Virus record (IMG/VR): IMGVR_UViG_3300048556_000223 | Location: 1 to 35,401 of that record | Direction: 5' to 3' (one strand) | DNA length: 35,401 nt | Source: a virus | Shown: positions 4,415-35,401 of the stretch, one piece after another | Layout: each line of letters starts with the position of its first letter | Numbering within the stretch: position 1 is the stretch's first letter | Position numbers and translations under genes: made by a program | Notes under the pieces: generated by a model | Database searches by the model: none | What the model saw: the letters and a program-made list of their open reading frames with translations, nothing else | What the model was told of the DNA's origin: nothing

Positions 4415-4587
4415 CAGAATGCCCAGAATGCCTAGAATGCCCAGAATGCCCCAAAACCTCCAGAATGCCCCTAATGCCCACGTTTAGCGTGCCCGTCGCG
4501 TCGCATTAAGGGGGCTTACGGCGACAAGTAGGGGGGTAAAACTAGGGCATTAGAGGCCAGCTGGGCAAACTGGGCAAACTGGGCAAA
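4415..4587 (+). repeat. Iteron array A (9-bp repeats), origin candidate
   Basis: Four head-to-tail 9-mers (CAGAATGCC or TAGAATGCC) occupy 4415-4450 with exact 9-bp spacing. A fifth lies at 4461-4469, followed by CTAATGCCC (4471-4479). An inverted copy, GGGCATTAG, is at 4545-4553, and three head-to-tail CTGGGCAAA units at 4561-4587 are the inverse of TTTGCCCAG. The array begins 2 bases after the ATPase stop codon and fills the gap to NinB. The same units recur at 30302-30365, with 25 of 27 bases shared between 4461-4487 and 30339-30365. Confidence 0.85.
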
Positions 4588-4609
4588 CTGAATACCAAAG
4601 GAGATTAAC

Positions 4610-12374: not shown

Positions 12375-13022
12375 TTAGACCGCCCTAAATACCATTTCTT
12401 CTGGATGTTTAGCCGCATCAATTGCTACGGCATCTGACAGGTACTGGTTAGCTATCGTAAAGTATTCGGCTGTAGATGTACCGCCTGTTTCTCCGCGTTC
12501 ACGGGCAAGCAGTGCTATTGCCAAATGAATAACAGGCGCTGAAGGAATAAGTAGTTTGTCAGTGTTAGCCGTTAGATCGCCTTGCCGCTTAACGACATCA
12601 AACCGCAGGCTATACACGCCATCTGGTGTAGGGCCAATTAAGAGTTGAGTATCGCCGTTGCTGTCTAGCCCGTTGTACGTAAAGTATTTTGGAGCGCCTT
12701 CTACTGCGTTAGCAATGTATAGCGCATCGTTAAACCAATCTTTAGTTTGGTATTCCATAAAGCAGTTCTGAGTGTCATTCAGTACTGACATTACTTTTAC
12801 ATTGTCACCGGAGTTAGTTAGTGAGTAAGTATTGTCCGATGCCGCAGTAGTTACCGTGATAGTTTCACGTAACGCAGACCAATCAGCCGCTTGACTAACT
12901 AATGTTTTTGCATCGTTAATAAAGTCACCAACCATCTTGGCGTAGGTAGTGTTAGTAACAGCAGTCACTTCCTCTTCTCGAAGACGACGCAGTACAGCGT
13001 TCATTAGGTTTAGATATGTCAT
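12375..13022 (-). CDS. Head-tail connector/adaptor protein, 215 aa
   Basis: The N-terminal half is helical (Leu-Met-Asn-Ala-Val-Leu-Arg-Arg-Leu-Arg-Glu-Glu) and includes Val-Gly-Asp-Phe-Ile-Asn-Asp-Ala-Lys near residue 31, a pattern seen in podovirus adaptor proteins of the gp4/tubular-A type that form a ring below the portal. A beta-rich middle (65-150) and a helical C-terminus follow. Size and place just upstream of the stabilisation protein match. It overlaps the giant collagen-like gene by 4 bases at its start. Family membership is likely; the exact homology class is uncertain. Confidence 0.7.
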   Translation of the reverse strand: MTYLNLMNAVLRRLREEEVTAVTNTTYAKMVGDFINDAKTLVSQAADWSALRETITVTTAASDNTYSLTNSGDNVKVMSVLNDTQNCFMEYQTKDWFNDALYIANAVEGAPKYFTYNGLDSNGDTQLLIGPTPDGVYSLRFDVVKRQGDLTANTDKLLIPSAPVIHLAIALLARERGETGGTSTAEYFTIANQYLSDAVAIDAAKHPEEMVFRAV

Positions 13023-16000
13023 ACGCTTCTAGCGCCTCCAGTAAACATGCCGATTCGTAAAGGGTCAGCCAACTTACGTCGCGTCAAACCACGTTGGAAC
13101 TTTTCAAACTCAACAGGATCAATTGGTGTAGCCGCCGCTATTTGCCCAGGCAACATCTTTTGCTGTGCCTCAAGACCTAAAAGCCCAGCACCTAAGCCAG
13201 CGCCTAACCCTGCAACGCCTTCACCAAGACCTTCAAGACCGCGACCAATACCGCTAATGTCTGACTGTATTCCGCCAATCTGAGTGCCTAGGTCTCCGAT
13301 CTGCCCACCAATCTCACCGAATTGCTCTTCAGTGCTTTGCTGGAACGCTTGCTGTGCTTCTGCTTGGCTAATTTGACCAGACTGCAATGCTTCAATATCA
13401 ACATTTACATCAGAAAATAAATCATTAACAGTGCCGCCAAACTCTTCAAACTGACGTTGAGTGCTTTCATTAAGGCGGGTTAGATCTCCACCAACAGCAA
13501 TAACAGCTTGTTGAAGATTACGCCTCTCGTCGGTTGCTTGTTGCGCCTGACTTGCCGCATCTGCTTGGTACTGAGCAAAGGCTTCTGCCTGACTAATTTG
13601 GCCTGCCTGTAAACCTTCAATGTCTACGTTAACTCCGGCAAATAATTGATTAACGTCCTCACCAAACTCATTAAATTGTTGGCGTGTCTGTGCGTCTAAA
13701 CGATTAACGTCACCGCCCACTGCAATAAGAGCCTGCTGTAGATTTCTACGCTCTTGCTCTGCGGTCTGTTGGCCTGCCGCAATTCCGGCAATAGATTGCT
13801 CTAGCTGGTTTTGAACGCTATTTATGTTAGTTCCAAGTTGGTTAAGCTGGTTGTTTAACGCGCCTTCTACAGTGGATAGTTGTCGTAGTGTATTGGCTTC
13901 TACGCCTGTAATCTGCGAGAGTAATCTAGCCTCAGCATCTGTTAGTTGACGAGCTTGGCCTTCGGCCTGTGCGGCCAACGCACTCTGAAGGCTGGCCTCT
14001 ACGTCTCTAACTTCTCCGCGAACTCCTGCAATAGAAGACTCCAAATCCGTTTGGACTTGGTTAATATCTGTGCCAATGTTGTTTAATCGGTTGTTTAATG
14101 CACCTTCTACAGTAGACAATTGACGCAACACGCCAGCCTCCACTCCCGTCATTTGAGAAAGCAGTCGAGCTTCGGCTTCAGTTAATTGTCTGGCTTGTCC
14201 CTCGGCTTGCGCCGCTAATGCATTCTGCAAACTAGTTTCTACGTCGCGTACTTCTCCGCGCACACCAGCAATAGACGACTCTAACTCAGTTTGTATATTG
14301 CCAAGATTGGAGCCCATTTGCTCTAGTTGGCGTTGCAATCCACCTTCTACTGCGGATAGTTGCCGTAATGTACTGGCCTCAACACCAGTAATTTGCTCTA
14401 ACAAACGAGATTCGGCTTGCGTTAACTGTCTAGCCTGACCAGCCTGCGCCGACTGCAATGCCTCTTGCAAACTACGTTCTACGCTTTCAACTTCGCCTGC
14501 CGTAGCAAACCCAGCGCCTTGCAAGGCTCGGCTAATATCTTCCGGTGTAGCAAACCCTGCACCAGCTATAGCATTTTCAATGTCTGCCGGAGTAGCAAAG
14601 CCTGATGCCGCCAAAGCATTGCCTAATTGTTCGGGCGTTACATATCCTGCATTAGCTAATGCACTTGCAACATCTTCTGGTGTAGTAAAGCCTGCGTTTG
14701 TTACTGCACGAGTAATGTCTTCTGGCGTGGCAAACCCAGCTTGAGCAAGGGCAGTGCCAATATCTGCTGGTGTTGCATAGCCTGCGCTAGCTACAGCATC
14801 AGCAACTTCTCCGGGCGTAGCAAAAGGTGTGTTTTCTAATACACTTTCTACAATACCGCGTATTGCCTCTGGATCAGCATCTCTTCCGGGTTCACCTCTT
14901 TCGCCTTGTTCACCCCTTTCTCCTTGTTCTCCGCGCTCTCCTTGCTCGCCTTGTTGTCCGTCTACCCCATCTATCCCATCGCGACCATCTGTTCCATCCC
15001 TTCCCGGCGCACCATCAACTCCATCACGACCGGGAGTGCCGTCTACTCCATCTCTGCCGTCTACTCCATCACGACCATCTACGCCATCTACGCCATCTCT
15101 ACCATCTTGACCGGGATCACCTCTTGGCCCTTGAACTGGTTCAGGAGGGAAATACTCGCCAAACATACCCGTTGTAATAGGCGCTTCTTCTTGTGGTGTT
15201 GGAGCGGGTGCAGGCGCCGGAGCAGGCGCTGGTTGAGGAGCAGGCTGAGGAGCAGGTGTTGGGGCAAAACTAGGATCAGGTTGCCGCGTAGGATCAGGCG
15301 ACGGTGATCTAGTGCCAGCATCTCCCGGCGTTTGATTTTCTTGATCTACAGGATCTACGGGCTCTGGCTCAGGCGGTGGCTCCGGTATTAGTTCTGGCTC
15401 TACCTCATACTCAAACGGATCTACTTCTACGTCTAAATCAAGAGGCGTATCCGGAGCTTCTGGAGCCATAGAGCTTTCAAGTGTTGGGTTGTTTACGTCT
15501 TGCCAGCCTTCCTCCATGTTTGCAAGAATTCGATCTGATGTAGAATCTACGCCAGCACCATCAACATCAAGGGTAACATCAAGAAATTGCGCGTTGTTTG
15601 AATCTGTAGGCAAGCCGCCACCAGAAACTAAGTGAGAATCTAGCCAGCTAATTTGCGCGTTGTTGTGTGTTAGATCAGAAGCGCCTTGGTACTCAACAAG
15701 GTTTGTTCCGTCAGATACATACAAACGTCCATTTGAGCCTCTAATTAATGTGTACTCAATACCTGATTCATCTACGTGCTGGGTGTGATATGCCAAATAA
15801 GTATCACCCAACTCCATAGAGCCGTACTCGTAATCTCCTGACCCATCCAGCGTTGTGACTACAGTTGATCCATCTAGAATTTCGGAAACTCTATCTGCTG
15901 GAATAGCTTGGTCATCAACATACATTATTGATTCCATTGGCCCGGCGTCAGCAGTTGTGTCAGCAGTAAAGTCAGCCGTAGTGTCTGCAAGCTCAGAGTC

Positions 16001-17413
16001 TGCATCATCGACTGTACTTGTTGTTAAATCTTCAGGAGTTGTTCTTGTAGGGGCATAAGCATCTTCATAAATAGACTGAAGGTTGCTTGATAAATCTCTT
16101 AGTTGATTAGCAATAGCTTCGTTTTGTTGGTCAGCAATAGCCGTATTAAGAGTGTTATTCATGTTCGAGGTAATTTCCTCAAACGCCTCTTGGTCTAAGC
16201 CATCTCTAAGTTCTGCCTGTCTTCTAGCAAGCTCTTCCATGGCTTCTGGAGAGGCTGTTGTGTTTTCTGAAATAAACTGTTGAATTGGCTCTAAGATAAA
16301 ACTTGCAAGCTCTTGAGCACCAGCAAACAAGCCAGAAGAAACAATCTGATCCATGTCTAACTCGCCATCAAATACTGCTTGGCGAATAGCTGTTTGACCC
16401 ATTGTCTCCAGTACATTGTCTACTTGCTCAATGCCTGTAATGTTAGATATGTCTAAGTTAATAGCATCGCTAATAGCTGGGCCAATAATTTGACTTACGG
16501 CCTGGCCTAAACCAGCAGTAGCCGCAGTTTGAAGTAGTTGTTCAGGGTCAATAGAGCCCGTAGTAATAGCTTGAGTTATAGCACTGCTAACGACGGCAGA
16601 GCCAACACCACCTAAAGCTGGAGCCAAAGCACCGCCTGACATAATGCCAACAGCAGTGACCATGGCCATTTTTACGTAATCACCAAGACCAGCATGATCT
16701 TCGTTTATAGTTTTTACATACGAAGACCCATTCCACTGAAACTTATCGCCTGTTTCACTATAAACCGTAGGATTAACGCCGTACTTTTGGAGTAACGCTG
16801 AGTTAGTCTCAGAGTTAAGCCAATCTTCATAACCTGATCTTTGACCAACTTGTTGGTTTTCTGCGATGTTATAAGAAGGCGCTCCACCTCCTGCTCCTAA
16901 CTCACCTACTTGACCTATATTAATATCAGGTAAATCATAAACTGTACCATCAGGAGCTGTATATTGGCCGCCTTCTGCTACATTACCAAAGTTACCCCAA
17001 TCACCAAGCGTTAACTCACCTGACTGAATTAACTCCTCACGCTCAGTCATATAAGCAAGGTAGTTATCAAATGAGCCAAATACTTCTGGTAGCCTGTTAG
17101 TGCGCTTGGGATCGTTAAAGTAATCTTGCAAATAACTTTCAGTAACTTGTTGTGGCTCTATTGACTGACCATATAATTCACCGGGCCTAGCGTCACCACG
17201 CTCAGAGCCTTCAATAAACGTAAAGGTCCTTTCTGCTGGCGTAGAAGTAGGTGTAGGTGTAGATGTATCTGTAGTAGAGTCTGTAAGCATCCCAGCAGAG
17301 GTAGAATCTGAAGGGGCAGAAGGCGTATTTGTAATTGTTCCACCATTAACTCTTACAAAGTCAATTGCGTCATAAACACTAGGAAACTCTTTTGTACCTA
17401 CATAATATGCCAT
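13019..17413 (-). CDS. Giant collagen-like repeat virion protein, 1464 aa
   Basis: A mosaic of segments, in order: a Ser/Thr-rich N-terminal part (1-200); an Ala/Gly-rich hydrophobic region (about 245-330); helical and acidic regions; a Pro-rich linker with PAPAP repeats (about 675-755); a collagen Gly-X-Y tract (about 760-845) rich in GRDG, GVDG and GERG triplets; eight 15-residue repeats of the type FATPEDI..AL..AG (about 865-973 and just beyond); three 80-residue coiled-coil repeats (about 974-1213); then two repeats of about 74 residues containing RRNLQQA and VAVGGD-like cores; and a short basic C-terminus. Collagen tracts in phages trimerise fibres. The location, between the lysis cassette and the connector, and the 'GKxxKG' free N-terminus give no clear host-receptor domain. 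It could be a fibre, a long internal protein or a whisker-like appendage. The ATG follows GGGAAAAG. Confidence 0.8.
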   Translation of the reverse strand: MAYYVGTKEFPSVYDAIDFVRVNGGTITNTPSAPSDSTSAGMLTDSTTDTSTPTPTSTPAERTFTFIEGSERGDARPGELYGQSIEPQQVTESYLQDYFNDPKRTNRLPEVFGSFDNYLAYMTEREELIQSGELTLGDWGNFGNVAEGGQYTAPDGTVYDLPDINIGQVGELGAGGGAPSYNIAENQQVGQRSGYEDWLNSETNSALLQKYGVNPTVYSETGDKFQWNGSSYVKTINEDHAGLGDYVKMAMVTAVGIMSGGALAPALGGVGSAVVSSAITQAITTGSIDPEQLLQTAATAGLGQAVSQIIGPAISDAINLDISNITGIEQVDNVLETMGQTAIRQAVFDGELDMDQIVSSGLFAGAQELASFILEPIQQFISENTTASPEAMEELARRQAELRDGLDQEAFEEITSNMNNTLNTAIADQQNEAIANQLRDLSSNLQSIYEDAYAPTRTTPEDLTTSTVDDADSELADTTADFTADTTADAGPMESIMYVDDQAIPADRVSEILDGSTVVTTLDGSGDYEYGSMELGDTYLAYHTQHVDESGIEYTLIRGSNGRLYVSDGTNLVEYQGASDLTHNNAQISWLDSHLVSGGGLPTDSNNAQFLDVTLDVDGAGVDSTSDRILANMEEGWQDVNNPTLESSMAPEAPDTPLDLDVEVDPFEYEVEPELIPEPPPEPEPVDPVDQENQTPGDAGTRSPSPDPTRQPDPSFAPTPAPQPAPQPAPAPAPAPAPTPQEEAPITTGMFGEYFPPEPVQGPRGDPGQDGRDGVDGVDGRDGVDGRDGVDGTPGRDGVDGAPGRDGTDGRDGIDGVDGQQGEQGERGEQGERGEQGERGEPGRDADPEAIRGIVESVLENTPFATPGEVADAVASAGYATPADIGTALAQAGFATPEDITRAVTNAGFTTPEDVASALANAGYVTPEQLGNALAASGFATPADIENAIAGAGFATPEDISRALQGAGFATAGEVESVERSLQEALQSAQAGQARQLTQAESRLLEQITGVEASTLRQLSAVEGGLQRQLEQMGSNLGNIQTELESSIAGVRGEVRDVETSLQNALAAQAEGQARQLTEAEARLLSQMTGVEAGVLRQLSTVEGALNNRLNNIGTDINQVQTDLESSIAGVRGEVRDVEASLQSALAAQAEGQARQLTDAEARLLSQITGVEANTLRQLSTVEGALNNQLNQLGTNINSVQNQLEQSIAGIAAGQQTAEQERRNLQQALIAVGGDVNRLDAQTRQQFNEFGEDVNQLFAGVNVDIEGLQAGQISQAEAFAQYQADAASQAQQATDERRNLQQAVIAVGGDLTRLNESTQRQFEEFGGTVNDLFSDVNVDIEALQSGQISQAEAQQAFQQSTEEQFGEIGGQIGDLGTQIGGIQSDISGIGRGLEGLGEGVAGLGAGLGAGLLGLEAQQKMLPGQIAAATPIDPVEFEKFQRGLTRRKLADPLRIGMFTGGARSV

Positions 17414-30143: not shown

Positions 30144-30181
30144 AAATTTTAAGTTGGCTATTTAACCAACCCACCCTCCCT

Positions 30182-30210
30182 ATCCTATATATGTCTTTAG
30201 TGCTAATCAA
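30182..30210 (-). promoter_or_regulatory. Candidate late promoter
   Basis: On the minus strand, TTGATT (30210-30205) and TAGGAT (30187-30182) are spaced by 17 bases; transcription would begin about 30 bases before the terS start. As the late operon has no other obvious promoter upstream, this could drive the whole 25-kb run. The adjacent AT-rich tract offers weaker alternatives. Confidence 0.4.
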
Positions 30211-30301
30211 CACTCTTTATACCTTATAACTTAACGGAATAAAAACCTCTTCATTATTCCTTTAGTAATCAGGGAGTTAAATCAACCGCAAAAACCCAGT
30301 T

Positions 30302-30365
30302 TAGAATGCCCAGTTTGCCCAGAATGCCCGGAAAAGGTCAGAATGCCCGTAATGCCCAAGTTTAG
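30302..30365 (+). repeat. Iteron array B, a second copy of the 9-bp repeat set
   Basis: TAGAATGCC (30302-30310), CAGTTTGCC (30311-30319) and CAGAATGCC (30320-30328) run head to tail at 9-bp spacing. CAGAATGCC recurs at 30339-30347 and is followed by GTAATGCCC (30349-30357), then GTTTAG at 30360-30365. The last 27 bases match 4461-4487 at all but two positions. Array A has the same two unit types (AGAATGCC and GTTTGCC in inverse). Downstream, TTAGA and TCTAA flank six C residues, and a run of nine C follows at about 30441. Confidence 0.85.
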
Positions 30366-30593
30366 ACCCCCCTCTAAGGTTCCAAAATCCGCTTTTTTTG
30401 TATCTGGGTGGGAACTATATATACACGCTAAGTCGAGTTACCCCCCCCCGGTGTCAATCATTCCTCTATTTAACCTGAAAGACCTGGCAGATTTGATATA
30501 GACCAAGCTAAACCATACAGGTGCATTCGATATATAACTGGATATACGATTAGTGGTGCCAATGAGTGTGAGTCTGCGAAGGACCCCCCTGAA

Positions 30594-31147
30594 GTGGTTA
30601 TCACTAGCTAACAGGTTAACCACCGCGCATTGATATCTACCGCATCGGGAATGATATTCCCTCTGGCTCGGCTCTGCCTCGCGGTAATGCCACCACCGTT
30701 GGCTCGCTGTAAGGCTACGGTTTACCTTGGTAATCCCCTATGCGGGGATTCCCCGCGGCCGGCTACTCGCCTAAACCGTTTTACAGCCGCTCGCGCACGC
30801 GCGCTGTTTACATGCCCGGTTAATCGGTTGACAAGGAAATCCTATCGGATTTGCGACAGCCTCCGGCTGGTAAAGTGCACGCAACCTTGTCAAGGCCACC
30901 GATTACCCATCCATGTTGCGCGTGCAGTCAATAGCATGGGAGGGGAACAGTTCAAGACCACCCGCTAAAGCGGGCGCAAGAACCGATAGCTAAAAATCCT
31001 CTGGGATTTTTTCGGTTGTCTTGACCATCAGATTTGTCCGAGTCCGCATCATTACCGGAAAAGGACATATCCGGAAATGATCCGGGTCGGCCAGAGCTAA
31101 TCTGATCCCCTCTGATCCATGCTGTTCATGAAGTGTCCCTTCGGGAC
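30594..31147 (+). ncRNA. Candidate large structured RNA (about 550 nt), unclassified
   Basis: A gene-free stretch with nested, mutually compatible inverted repeats. Helices: 30594-30600/30617-30623; 30638-30643/30681-30686 enclosing hairpin 30647-30652/30656-30661; 30706-30712/30781-30787 continued by 30717-30724/30772-30779 and enclosing 30732-30738/30744-30750; 30795-30802/30918-30925 enclosing 30821-30836/30885-30905 (16 pairs, 5-nt bulge) that caps hairpins 30837-30852 and 30857-30869; a three-way junction of 30952-30958/31018-31024, hairpin 30961-30974 and 30981-30986/31012-31017 with 30992-30999/31004-31011; then 31027-31034/31099-31106 enclosing CCGA/TCGG, ATCATT/AATGAT and CCGGA/TCCGG helices; and hairpin 31135-31147. 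The 31135 hairpin lies 33 bases before the next start. It matches no RNA family I can name. It could also act at DNA level. Confidence 0.6.
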
Positions 31148-31179
31148 TCTTCAATCATATAGAGAAAAGGAATCTCAAG

Positions 31180-31536
31180 ATGAAAACTTCTAACGAAATG
31201 AAAAACAAAATCAAGTCAATCTCAATTGCTGGCTGGACTAATCAGTTCCATCAAGGCAAGCGTCCAACACACGCAGGCAGTGTCGCCATTGAGTTTGAGG
31301 ATGGTTCAAGCTTACGTCTACCGTACTCGTTCTGGGCGGACGTTAGCCCGGAGGGGAGACGCCCAAACATCACAGGCACTATCGACCTGTACAAGTTAGG
31401 CCAGCAAGTCGAGATGTCTTCTAACTTTCACGACGAAGAGGAGTTTATCAACCCACATTTACTAAAGCAGACACAGCCTTCGGCAGTAACGGACTCCAAA
31501 AAGGTCGTGAAACCGAAGACTCGCAAGATCGCTTAA
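31180..31536 (+). CDS. Hypothetical protein, first early gene, 118 aa
   Basis: The first coding gene of the early operon, behind an AAAGGAA Shine-Dalgarno. The N-terminal two thirds alternates hydrophobic and polar residues (Ala-Ile-Glu-Phe-Glu-Asp-Gly-Ser-Ser-Leu-Arg-Leu-Pro-Tyr), suggesting a small beta fold; residues about 95-118 are a basic tail (Lys-Lys-Val-Val-Lys-Pro-Lys-Thr-Arg-Lys-Ile-Ala). No recognised domain. A GC-rich hairpin follows. Being first after the long structured leader suggests it is made early and may be abundant. Confidence 0.75.
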   Translation: MKTSNEMKNKIKSISIAGWTNQFHQGKRPTHAGSVAIEFEDGSSLRLPYSFWADVSPEGRRPNITGTIDLYKLGQQVEMSSNFHDEEEFINPHLLKQTQPSAVTDSKKVVKPKTRKIA

Positions 31537-31581: not shown

Positions 31582-31824
31582 ATGACTATGAGTAACAAAA
31601 CTAGAGCAAAGCGTTATCGAATCAGGAAGAATGGATTAAAGCTACGCGTCTCCGTTAGAGAGGCAGACATCCTTCTTCGTTTGCTCAAGGACCATCCGTA
31701 TGAGTCACTGCGAAATAAAATAGACGAGCAAGCAACGGCCCAGTTGCGTGAGTCGTTTATCGAGTACATGGATGGTCTGCGTGAGCAAGACGAACTTACA
31801 TACGACTCAATCGAGGAGGCTTAG
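31582..31824 (+). CDS. Hypothetical basic-to-acidic protein, 80 aa
   Basis: The N-terminal 25 residues are strongly basic (Lys-Thr-Arg-Ala-Lys-Arg-Tyr-Arg-Ile-Arg-Lys-Asn), while the rest is acidic and helical, ending Asp-Ser-Ile-Glu-Glu-Ala. A clear AAAGGAG Shine-Dalgarno precedes the ATG. A terminator overlaps its stop codon. It could be a small nucleic-acid-binding or host-interaction protein; no family is recognised. Confidence 0.75.
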   Translation: MTMSNKTRAKRYRIRKNGLKLRVSVREADILLRLLKDHPYESLRNKIDEQATAQLRESFIEYMDGLREQDELTYDSIEEA

Positions 31825-31837
31825 GCCTCCTTTTTTT
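31815..31837 (+). terminator. Rho-independent terminator overlapping a stop codon
   Basis: GGAGGC, TTAG, GCCTCC (31815-31830) followed by seven T residues. The TAG stop of the preceding gene lies in the loop. It would end the first early transcription unit, so the genes from 32132 onward need readthrough, antitermination or their own promoter. Confidence 0.85.
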
Positions 31838-31862
31838 ATGTTGGTCTCCAATCTTGAGGGCC

Positions 31863-32100
31863 AGGTCACGCGGTAGCCGCGGCAAGCCGCGCTATTTACC
31901 GCTACGGCTGAAGCCTCCGCTTTCCGCGTGCCTGTCCCGGATCGCATTACTTAATAGTTTTAGTTGTTATGGCTGTTATCCATGGTGCGATGGTGGCTAG
32001 CGCATCACGCCAGCTTTGACGCCAGACACGCCGAGTCGGGCGACCGACGATTATACCGGCTGGACAGCGCCGGTGTCGGGTCGCGCCGCCGAACGGCGGT
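31863..32100 (+). ncRNA. Structured intergenic RNA candidate with competing hairpins
   Basis: The 307-bp gap between the terminator and the next gene holds several inverted repeats: AGG-CACGCGG/CCGCGTG-CCT (31863-31873/31924-31933); a hairpin 31878-31891 with CAAG loop; GGTGCGATG/CATCACGCC (31984-31992/32003-32011, one mismatch, one G-T pair); GTCGG-GCGA-CCGAC (32035-32048); ACCGGC/GCCGGT (32055-32060/32069-32074); CCGCC-GAAC-GGCGG (32086-32099). CCGAC at 32044-32048 can instead pair with GTCGG at 32075-32079, so two folds compete. The last hairpin lies 20 bases before the AAAAGGAA ribosome site. I see no gene in this stretch. Confidence 0.5.
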
Positions 32101-32131
32101 CTGTTAATTTAATTTATAAAAGGAATTAGTT

Positions 32132-32742: not shown

Positions 32743-32905
32743 TAACCATACTTTCCGAATCTACAATGCTGAAGGTAAAACCTTAGCGTTAGTAGAGGTG
32801 CCGTACGATCCAAGCGTGGATGAAATGACTGACGTGCTTGAGTTAGTTGGTGAGTTTTATACAGACATGGTGGGCTATGAACATGTTGGTCCGTCTGACA
32901 AATGA
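32735..32905 (+). CDS. Hypothetical protein, 56 aa
   Basis: I start it at the ATG at 32735, inside the preceding stop region (ATGACTGA arrangement). The sequence, Thr-Phe-Arg-Ile-Tyr-Asn-Ala-Glu-Gly-Lys-Thr then acidic helices, is soluble and acidic. A longer in-frame start at 32687 would lie inside the previous gene without a ribosome site. Family unknown. Confidence 0.65.
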   Translation: MTDNHTFRIYNAEGKTLALVEVPYDPSVDEMTDVLELVGEFYTDMVGYEHVGPSDK

Positions 32906-32915
32906 TGGCGATGCC

Positions 32916-32976
32916 TGGGCGATAGCCCAAGCTGAGCCGCTCACGCTCTTGCGCCCCCGGTTTGTGCGGGGCGCAA
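32916..32976 (+). other. Paired hairpins in the gap between early genes
   Basis: TGGGC-GATA-GCCCA (32916-32929) and a nine-pair stem TTGCGCCCC/GGGGCGCAA (32949-32957/32968-32976, ten-base loop). There is no T run directly after either, so they are not standard terminators. They lie between the 56-aa gene and the next Shine-Dalgarno. Confidence 0.6.
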
Positions 32977-33484: not shown

Positions 33485-34318
33485 ATGAAATATGATCGAA
33501 TCGTTGAACTCGTTGAGTCTGCTATGGCGGACGAGACTACATGGCGCAAGACATGGGAGTCACAGTCTTGCCTCCACCAAAACTGGGTGACTAAGCGCCC
33601 ATACAATGGCACGAACCAGCTGATGACGATGATTGCTAGCTGGAAGTATGGCTACACTAAACCTTACTGGCTTACATGGAACCAAGTGCAACAGCTTGGC
33701 GGTAGTGTCAAAGGTCAGAAGGCAACACCTGCAATCTTTTTTAGCAAAGCTAAGGACAAGAAAGATCCTGAAAAAGAGTTTGCTTTTGCAAAGGTATACA
33801 ACCTATTCAACATTGACCAAACAGGCATCGAGTTGCCTGAGATCCCAATACGAGAAAGCAGGCTCGACAATCCCAACGAGATTGCCGATGCACTGCAAGT
33901 CAAAGTGAGTAATGCAGAGCACCACAATCCATGCTACTCACCTTCGGCTGACCAGATTCGGATGCCTATGCCAGGGCAATTTGAGTCTGACGATGCTTAT
34001 CAATCCACCTTTTATCACGAGTGCATTCACTCTACTGGTCACAGCAAACGACTAGATCGTGATCTGACTGGCGCATTTGGACATGAAGACTATGCCAAAG
34101 AAGAGTTAGTTGCAGAGTTGGGATCTATCTTCTTATGCGCTCAACTGGGTGTGACCTATGACATCAGCCAACATGCCAGCTATATCAAGTCATGGCAGAA
34201 GGCTATCAAGTCTGACCCTCGATACATTACGACAGCGGCAAAGGATGCACAGAAAGCATTCGAGTATTGCATGTCGCAATTTGAACTCATGCGAAAGTAT
34301 GAAAACGAAGCGGCATAG
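33485..34318 (+). CDS. ardC: ArdC-like antirestriction protein, 277 aa
   Basis: The N-terminal half (about residues 1-125) matches the ArdC ssDNA-binding domain, with Thr-Lys-Arg-Pro-Tyr-Asn-Gly-Thr-Asn-Gln near 36-45, Trp-Leu-Thr-Trp-Asn-Gln-Val near 62-68, Gly-Gly-Ser-Val-Lys-Gly-Gln-Lys-Ala and Val-Tyr-Asn-Leu-Phe-Asn-Ile-Asp-Gln. The C-terminal half has the zincin motif His178-Glu179-Cys-Ile-His182 and Glu-Glu-Leu-Val-Ala-Glu-Leu-Gly near 206-213, giving the third ligand. ArdC proteins from conjugative plasmids protect entering DNA from restriction. I chose the ATG at 33485 after AAAGGGAAC; a start 13 codons upstream lacks a ribosome site. Its place in the first-expressed region fits defence against host restriction. 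Confidence 0.9.
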   Translation: MKYDRIVELVESAMADETTWRKTWESQSCLHQNWVTKRPYNGTNQLMTMIASWKYGYTKPYWLTWNQVQQLGGSVKGQKATPAIFFSKAKDKKDPEKEFAFAKVYNLFNIDQTGIELPEIPIRESRLDNPNEIADALQVKVSNAEHHNPCYSPSADQIRMPMPGQFESDDAYQSTFYHECIHSTGHSKRLDRDLTGAFGHEDYAKEELVAELGSIFLCAQLGVTYDISQHASYIKSWQKAIKSDPRYITTAAKDAQKAFEYCMSQFELMRKYENEAA

Positions 34319-34325
34319 CCGTTCA

Positions 34326-34365
34326 GGATTCCGCACCCCGGCTTTGGCGGGGGCTGCGGAAATCC
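34326..34365 (+). other. Long GC-rich hairpin after ardC
   Basis: TTCCGCA/TGCGGAA (34329-34335/34355-34361) with CCCC/GGGG inside (34336-34339/34350-34353) and GGA/TCC outside. It follows the ardC stop by 7 bases and precedes a new AAAGGAG site. There is no T run, so attenuation or mRNA processing is more likely than full termination. Confidence 0.6.
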
Positions 34366-34394
34366 CTCACTTCTATTTACCAAAGGAGAAAACA

Positions 34395-35154: not shown

Positions 35155-35350
35155 TCGTTATTACCCGGAGTCACTGCTCCGGGTTTACTTTAGTGTATGC
35201 CGGGTACATAACCGTGAGCCCAGCTTTTCAGACATGCAACAGTTTGTCTTTGAAGTCTTGGGCAATGGCCACTCGGATGGTATACCTACATCAAAGCTAA
35301 ATGAGGTGTTTAAAAATGCTAGGAAAAATCAACATTCTCGTACGCGGTAG
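35147..35350 (+). CDS. Hypothetical protein, 67 aa, crosses the contig junction
   Basis: Starts with GTG at 35147 behind GGAGA, overlapping the previous stop by 8 bases. The basic, aromatic sequence includes Arg-Val-Tyr-Phe-Ser-Val-Cys-Arg-Val-His-Asn-Arg. On the circle its 3' end (35350, equal to base 76) overlaps the gene at 42-356. It is read through the repeated end, so its stop is real and not a contig-edge effect. Confidence 0.75.
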   Translation: MPDRYYPESLLRVYFSVCRVHNREPSFSDMQQFVFEVLGNGHSDGIPTSKLNEVFKNARKNQHSRTR

Positions 35351-35401
35351 TATCGAAGAAGATGCTGACGATTACATGGGAGCTATCATCGAAGACTACA
35401 A
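35275..35401. repeat. Terminal overlap of a circular contig (right copy)
   Basis: Identical over all 127 bases to 1-127. See the left copy. Removing it leaves a 35,274-bp circle. Confidence 0.9.
35316..35401 (+). CDS. Duplicate 5' fragment of the gene at 42-356
   Basis: The ATG at 35316 corresponds to base 42 and the frame stays open to the end of the window. It is the second reading of the same gene produced by the 127-base terminal overlap, not a second gene. Confidence 0.85.
   Translation, partial: MLGKINILVRGSIEEDADDYMGAIIEDY

Follow-up and report, generated by a model that had tools for sequence, protein, structure and literature searches.

The gap between the late and early genes of an uncultured marine phage holds a structure that selection maintains at the RNA level and that is built of modular helical domains. 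We tentatively assign it to a new family of large structured phage leader RNAs, which probably acts as an RNA-protein unit with the product of the first early gene, ORF118. The window, that is the whole stretch of 35,401 nt analysed, ends in a sequence (35275-35401) that duplicates positions 1-127. These 127 nt equal the assembly k-mer length, and this terminal repeat marks the window as a complete, circular phage genome. By its TerL, portal and major capsid protein the phage is tailed; the TerL is less than 60% identical to all matches among cultured phage records, and at least 599 stretches in IMG/VR encode a relative. The - strand carries the late genes and the + strand the early ones, and the gap at 30144-31179 separates the two groups. 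A 1464-aa protein is encoded at 13019-17413, residues ~723-931 of which match tail-fibre and collagen-like PHROG families.

Within this gap the region 30594-31147 (554 nt) folds on the + strand with a minimum free energy of -214 kcal/mol (z -4.6), and none of 100 shuffles was as good. The dense folding described for it in the preliminary description is thus borne out, and is stronger still for 30680-31180 (501 nt, + strand), with a z of -6.8 against shuffled sequence. The - strand of 30594-31147 gives z -5.5, whereas the neighbouring control 30144-30590, the upstream half of the gap, shows no excess folding (z +0.8). Two elements singled out in that description, a 16-pair helix that carries a 5-nt bulge and caps two hairpins, and a three-way junction in which 30952-30958/31018-31024, 30961-30974 and 30981-31017 meet, were both found in the predicted fold. 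The parts of the RNA and the features that follow it, with the basis for each, are:

30594-30685, + strand: 5' hairpins, poorly conserved, with ~30645-30685 absent in L111, L006, L099 and L007 (alignment)
30686-31147, + strand: type I core of three domains and a 3' hairpin (fold z -6.8, homologues, compensatory pairs)
30704-30792, + strand: domain 1, a long hairpin with a conserved GUAAUCCC-loop-GGGAUUCC tip (fold, alignment)
30796-30924, + strand: domain 2, closed by helix 30796-30802/30918-30924 (helix table, alignment)
30827-30895, + strand: exchangeable domain 2 insert, comprising the 16-pair helix, its 5-nt bulge and two hairpins (fold, alignment)
30927-31127, + strand: domain 3, with closing helices 30931-30939/31117-31125 and 30940-30945/31107-31112 (alignment, RNAalifold, model R1)
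30952-31024, + strand: three-way junction with arms 30961-30974 and 30981-31017 (fold, alignment, helix table, covariation counts)
31028-31105, + strand: arm C, with base 31028-31034/31099-31105 (helix table, RNAalifold)
31135-31147, + strand: 3' hairpin GUCCC-UUC-GGGAC, with a start codon 32 nt downstream (sequence, fold)
31180-31536, + strand: first early gene ORF118, 118 aa, with basic C-terminal tail KKVVKPKTRKIA (proteins, relatives)
31813-31840, + strand: intrinsic terminator ending the putative RNA-ORF118-ORF80 unit (sequence, relatives)
31841-32105, + strand: second structured region (fold z -2.65; two-sided changes in 7 of 40 consensus pairs)

Relatives were searched for via TerL, two neighbouring proteins and DNA patterns, using BLAST and a covariance model. 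Ten IMG/VR relatives carry the region (L083/L003, L084, L111, L006, L099, L122, L100, L007/L173, L031 and L119), and this type I family is small, at roughly four or five independent lineages. The covariance model R1, built on the 3' domain (30927-31147), recovers all ten at E 1e-28 to 1e-66 and, among related loci and pattern matches totalling ~1.7 Mb, turned up no additional full-length member. BLAST of the region against phage and plasmid records gave no match. The covariance model showed that the loci drawn by the short pattern GCTRATCCATGCTGT, like a pattern match from an Opitutales MAG (L253), were due to chance; most loci from a further search were judged on inspection to be chance as well. 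We rejected a protein-coding reading of the region because the many insertions among the relatives do not come in multiples of three.

Alignment of these relatives narrows the region as it was originally delimited. The core at 30686-31147 is conserved, but the hairpins at 30594-30685 are partly absent even in the close relatives L111 and L006. Similarly, the 16-pair helix, though predicted in the window, sits in an insert (~30827-30895) that is common to L083, L007 and L031 and is exchanged for unrelated sequence in L084, L099, L111, L122 and L119. Both this insert and the 5' stretch are therefore dispensable or swapped among relatives. Domain 3 can be aligned in all of them and its closing helices are constant, while the 5' modules are exchanged.

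Many helices keep their pairing as their sequence changes. The composition of the domain 1 outer helix varies among relatives. The domain 2 closing helix is CACGCGC/GCGCGUG in the window and CCCGCGC/GCGCGGG in L119; it encloses helices 30810-30814/30912-30916 and then 30818-30825/30901-30907, one pair of which occurs as UA, CG, GC or AU across relatives (a hand-chosen, illustrative case). The two closing helices of domain 3 are separated by a 4-nt bulge, and the inner one is found as GAGGGG/CCCCUC, GCGAGG/CCUCGC or GAGGAG/CUCCUC. At the three-way junction the arms differ among relatives and the stem 30954-30958/31018-31022 reads AAGAC/GUCUU, AAGAG/CUCUU or AAAAG/CUUUU. For the base of arm C the variants are UCAGAUU/AAUCUGA, CCAGACU/AGUCUGG and GCAAACU/AGUUUGC; an invariant U/C mismatch follows it, and arm C contains more covarying helices. 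The hand-made table of helices in domain 2 and the arms was selected for pairing, and serves as illustration, not as a test.

For an independent assessment, eight relatives were aligned on sequence only and RNAalifold was run without input from the window's fold. It predicted 48 pairs in the 3' domain (30927-31147), 11 of them with two-sided compensatory changes, and one pair occurs as UA, GC and CG types. When the window's own fold was placed on this alignment, there were 22 double-change cells, a count reached by none of 500 shuffles (9.8), and 12 covarying pairs, compared with 8.0 in shuffles (2 of 500), in a test that ignores relatedness. Slid controls, which keep relatedness and favour any structure derived from one aligned sequence for that reason alone, gave just 2-4 covarying pairs. 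On a measure of further pair types the window's fold was not above shuffles in the eight-sequence alignment. All eight sequences conserve a U-G wobble pair; read from the opposite strand it would become an A-C mismatch, which points to the + strand. These compensatory changes and the U-G pair favour an RNA structure over palindromes in the DNA.

No match was obtained to any of the 4227 families of Rfam 15, and permissive thresholds yielded nothing credible for the window or for either RNA type. The GOLLD model gave no hit at the gathering threshold or up to E 10, and the phi29 pRNA covariance model from Rfam was likewise unmatched. ARAGORN and Rfam revealed no tmRNA, and the genome contains no tRNA. 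The preliminary description had been unable to match the region to group I and II introns, RNase P or tmRNA, and these searches agree. Caution over GOLLD and ROOL was also justified, and we do not claim membership of either since their covariance models are unmatched and tRNA is absent. The RNA resembles GOLLD in being large and phage-borne, and in pairing a constant 3' region with a variable 5' region (PMC12286853), here domain 3 and the 5' modules. In contrast, GOLLD exceeds 800 nt, compared with ~460 nt here, and often lies near tRNA genes, whereas this RNA stands directly before a protein gene with no tRNA array. ROOL is similarly a large ornate phage RNA of many domains, but there is no tRNA island here. 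Among leaders, that of T4 gene 32 mediates autogenous control, gp32 exerting feedback on its own mRNA. The likeness is that of a structured leader to a possible single-strand-binding protein gene, although the RNA here is much larger and modular and ORF118 is only a candidate for such a protein. A folded early leader is also shared with HK022 put RNA, described in PMC9378689, and with lambda nut-N, the latter being alike in its adjoining small basic protein gene and terminator.

As the preliminary description stated, the region ends just upstream of the first early gene. Type I loci on long enough contigs all have an ORF118 relative downstream of the RNA, and distant ORF118 relatives lie downstream of the RNA in L156, L162 and L275. 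ORF118 itself has no significant match and its AlphaFold model (pLDDT 53) was too poor for use. Of four other first-gene proteins, three have hits to single-strand-binding proteins in PHROG (E 4e-6 to 2e-5). Iterated profiles connect ORF118 with first genes of other phages; however, this link may be drift, since hhalign, comparing the profiles directly, gives a weak match (E 0.011, probability 4%). Across 29 distinct first-gene proteins, leader folding is stronger before tailed than before tail-less proteins (20 vs 9; Mann-Whitney p 3e-4, a statistic that ignores relatedness). The exceptions are L163, with a folded leader and no tail, and L105, with a tail and a weak leader. Relatives that were examined, whether or not they have the RNA, carry an intrinsic terminator after the first gene or genes. 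We looked for a terminator-like site between RNA and ORF118 and found none, and a promoter search for the RNA gave none that was convincing. The second structured region occurs in relatives with the RNA and is absent from six aligned relatives without it.

Several other repeats and hairpins were observed in the genome. A conserved DNA complex that does not fold occupies 30394-30422, 30442-30450 and 30564-30587, running from TTTTTTTGTATCTGGGTGGGAAC through a C tract to AGTGTGAGTC-GAAGGACCC. It is single-copy in the genome, is found in most relatives whether or not they have the RNA, and is possibly a packaging or replication site. Repeats of the AGAATGCCC type occur at two distant intergenic spots, 30303-30365 and 4425-4487, which are 83% alike. 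The latter precedes a NinB-like gene and has a GGGCAAACT tandem nearby at 4561-4591. More G+C-rich hairpins lie between early genes at 32905-32960 and 34318-34380.

Our preferred reading is that the first early transcript would carry the + strand RNA in its 5' portion and run on through ORF118 and ORF80 to the terminator. The RNA adjoins the ribosome-binding site of the first gene and a terminator comes soon after the gene or genes, so a leader, or a transcript of RNA plus gene, fits better than a free-standing RNA gene. The suggestion of a new class is partly supported, by the compensatory changes and the lack of an Rfam match. We further favour a unit with the adjacent small protein, of nucleic-acid-binding type, whose basic tail occurs mostly together with strongly folded leaders. 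By binding the RNA the protein could control its own transcript; alternatively, the RNA may be excised and work in trans. A leader acting only in cis, which would regulate the first early gene at the level of translation or transcription through product feedback or the sensing of a signal, is possible but somewhat doubtful. It would account for the position of the RNA, whose end lies beside the ribosome-binding site and 32 nt upstream of the start codon, with no terminator-like site in between, and for the resemblance of first-gene relatives to single-strand-binding proteins. However, the RNA is very large for a cis regulator, and relatives without it retain the first gene and the terminator. 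A second RNA at the same site, described below, is also found before first genes of two different kinds.

If the RNA were instead processed from the transcript as a free-standing molecule, it might form an RNA-only assembly like those of GOLLD and ROOL. Its size, phage origin and modular inserts are consistent with this, as is the division into a constant 3' half and a variable 5' half seen in GOLLD (PMC12286853). The missing Rfam match and tRNA, the tight coupling to a protein gene and the lack of a terminator of its own make this improbable. We consider it less probable again that the RNA acts on RNA polymerase as an antitermination element, as HK022 put and lambda nut with N do, allowing passage through the terminator after the first genes. 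The order of structured RNA, small basic-tailed protein and terminator suits this role, but put and nut elements are far smaller than this RNA, and the same terminator is present in relatives without it. Palindromes that serve the DNA itself, as a packaging site or an origin of replication, with RNA playing no part, are the least credible explanation. While the - strand folds well too and the conserved complex at 30394-30587 lies just upstream, compensatory changes are seen in helices spanning up to ~190 nt whose bulges and mismatches are kept, and the U-G pair is conserved.

The second RNA, type II, was found in L156, L150, L143, L159 and L275. It is longer (500-580 nt), carries optional hairpin modules and lies directly upstream of the first early gene, as type I does. 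RNAalifold predicted 156 pairs, 16 of them double-changed, with a covariation term near zero, and comparison with Rfam gave no credible match. Types I and II have three short, collinear stretches in common at the three-way junction; as the BLAST E is only 0.62, we do not claim homology of the whole. A broader reading, which we think unlikely, is that such RNAs are fast-evolving and modular, 400-700 nt long, with modules swapped between phages by recombination, and would form obligate RNA-protein particles with an early protein of single-strand-binding type that acquired its basic tail to this end, a second partner RNA lying downstream.

To our knowledge few large structured phage RNAs have been described, and none has a settled function. 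The RNA described here appears to have a protein as candidate partner, and among close relatives there appear to be natural pairs with and without the RNA; with these its function would be directly testable.
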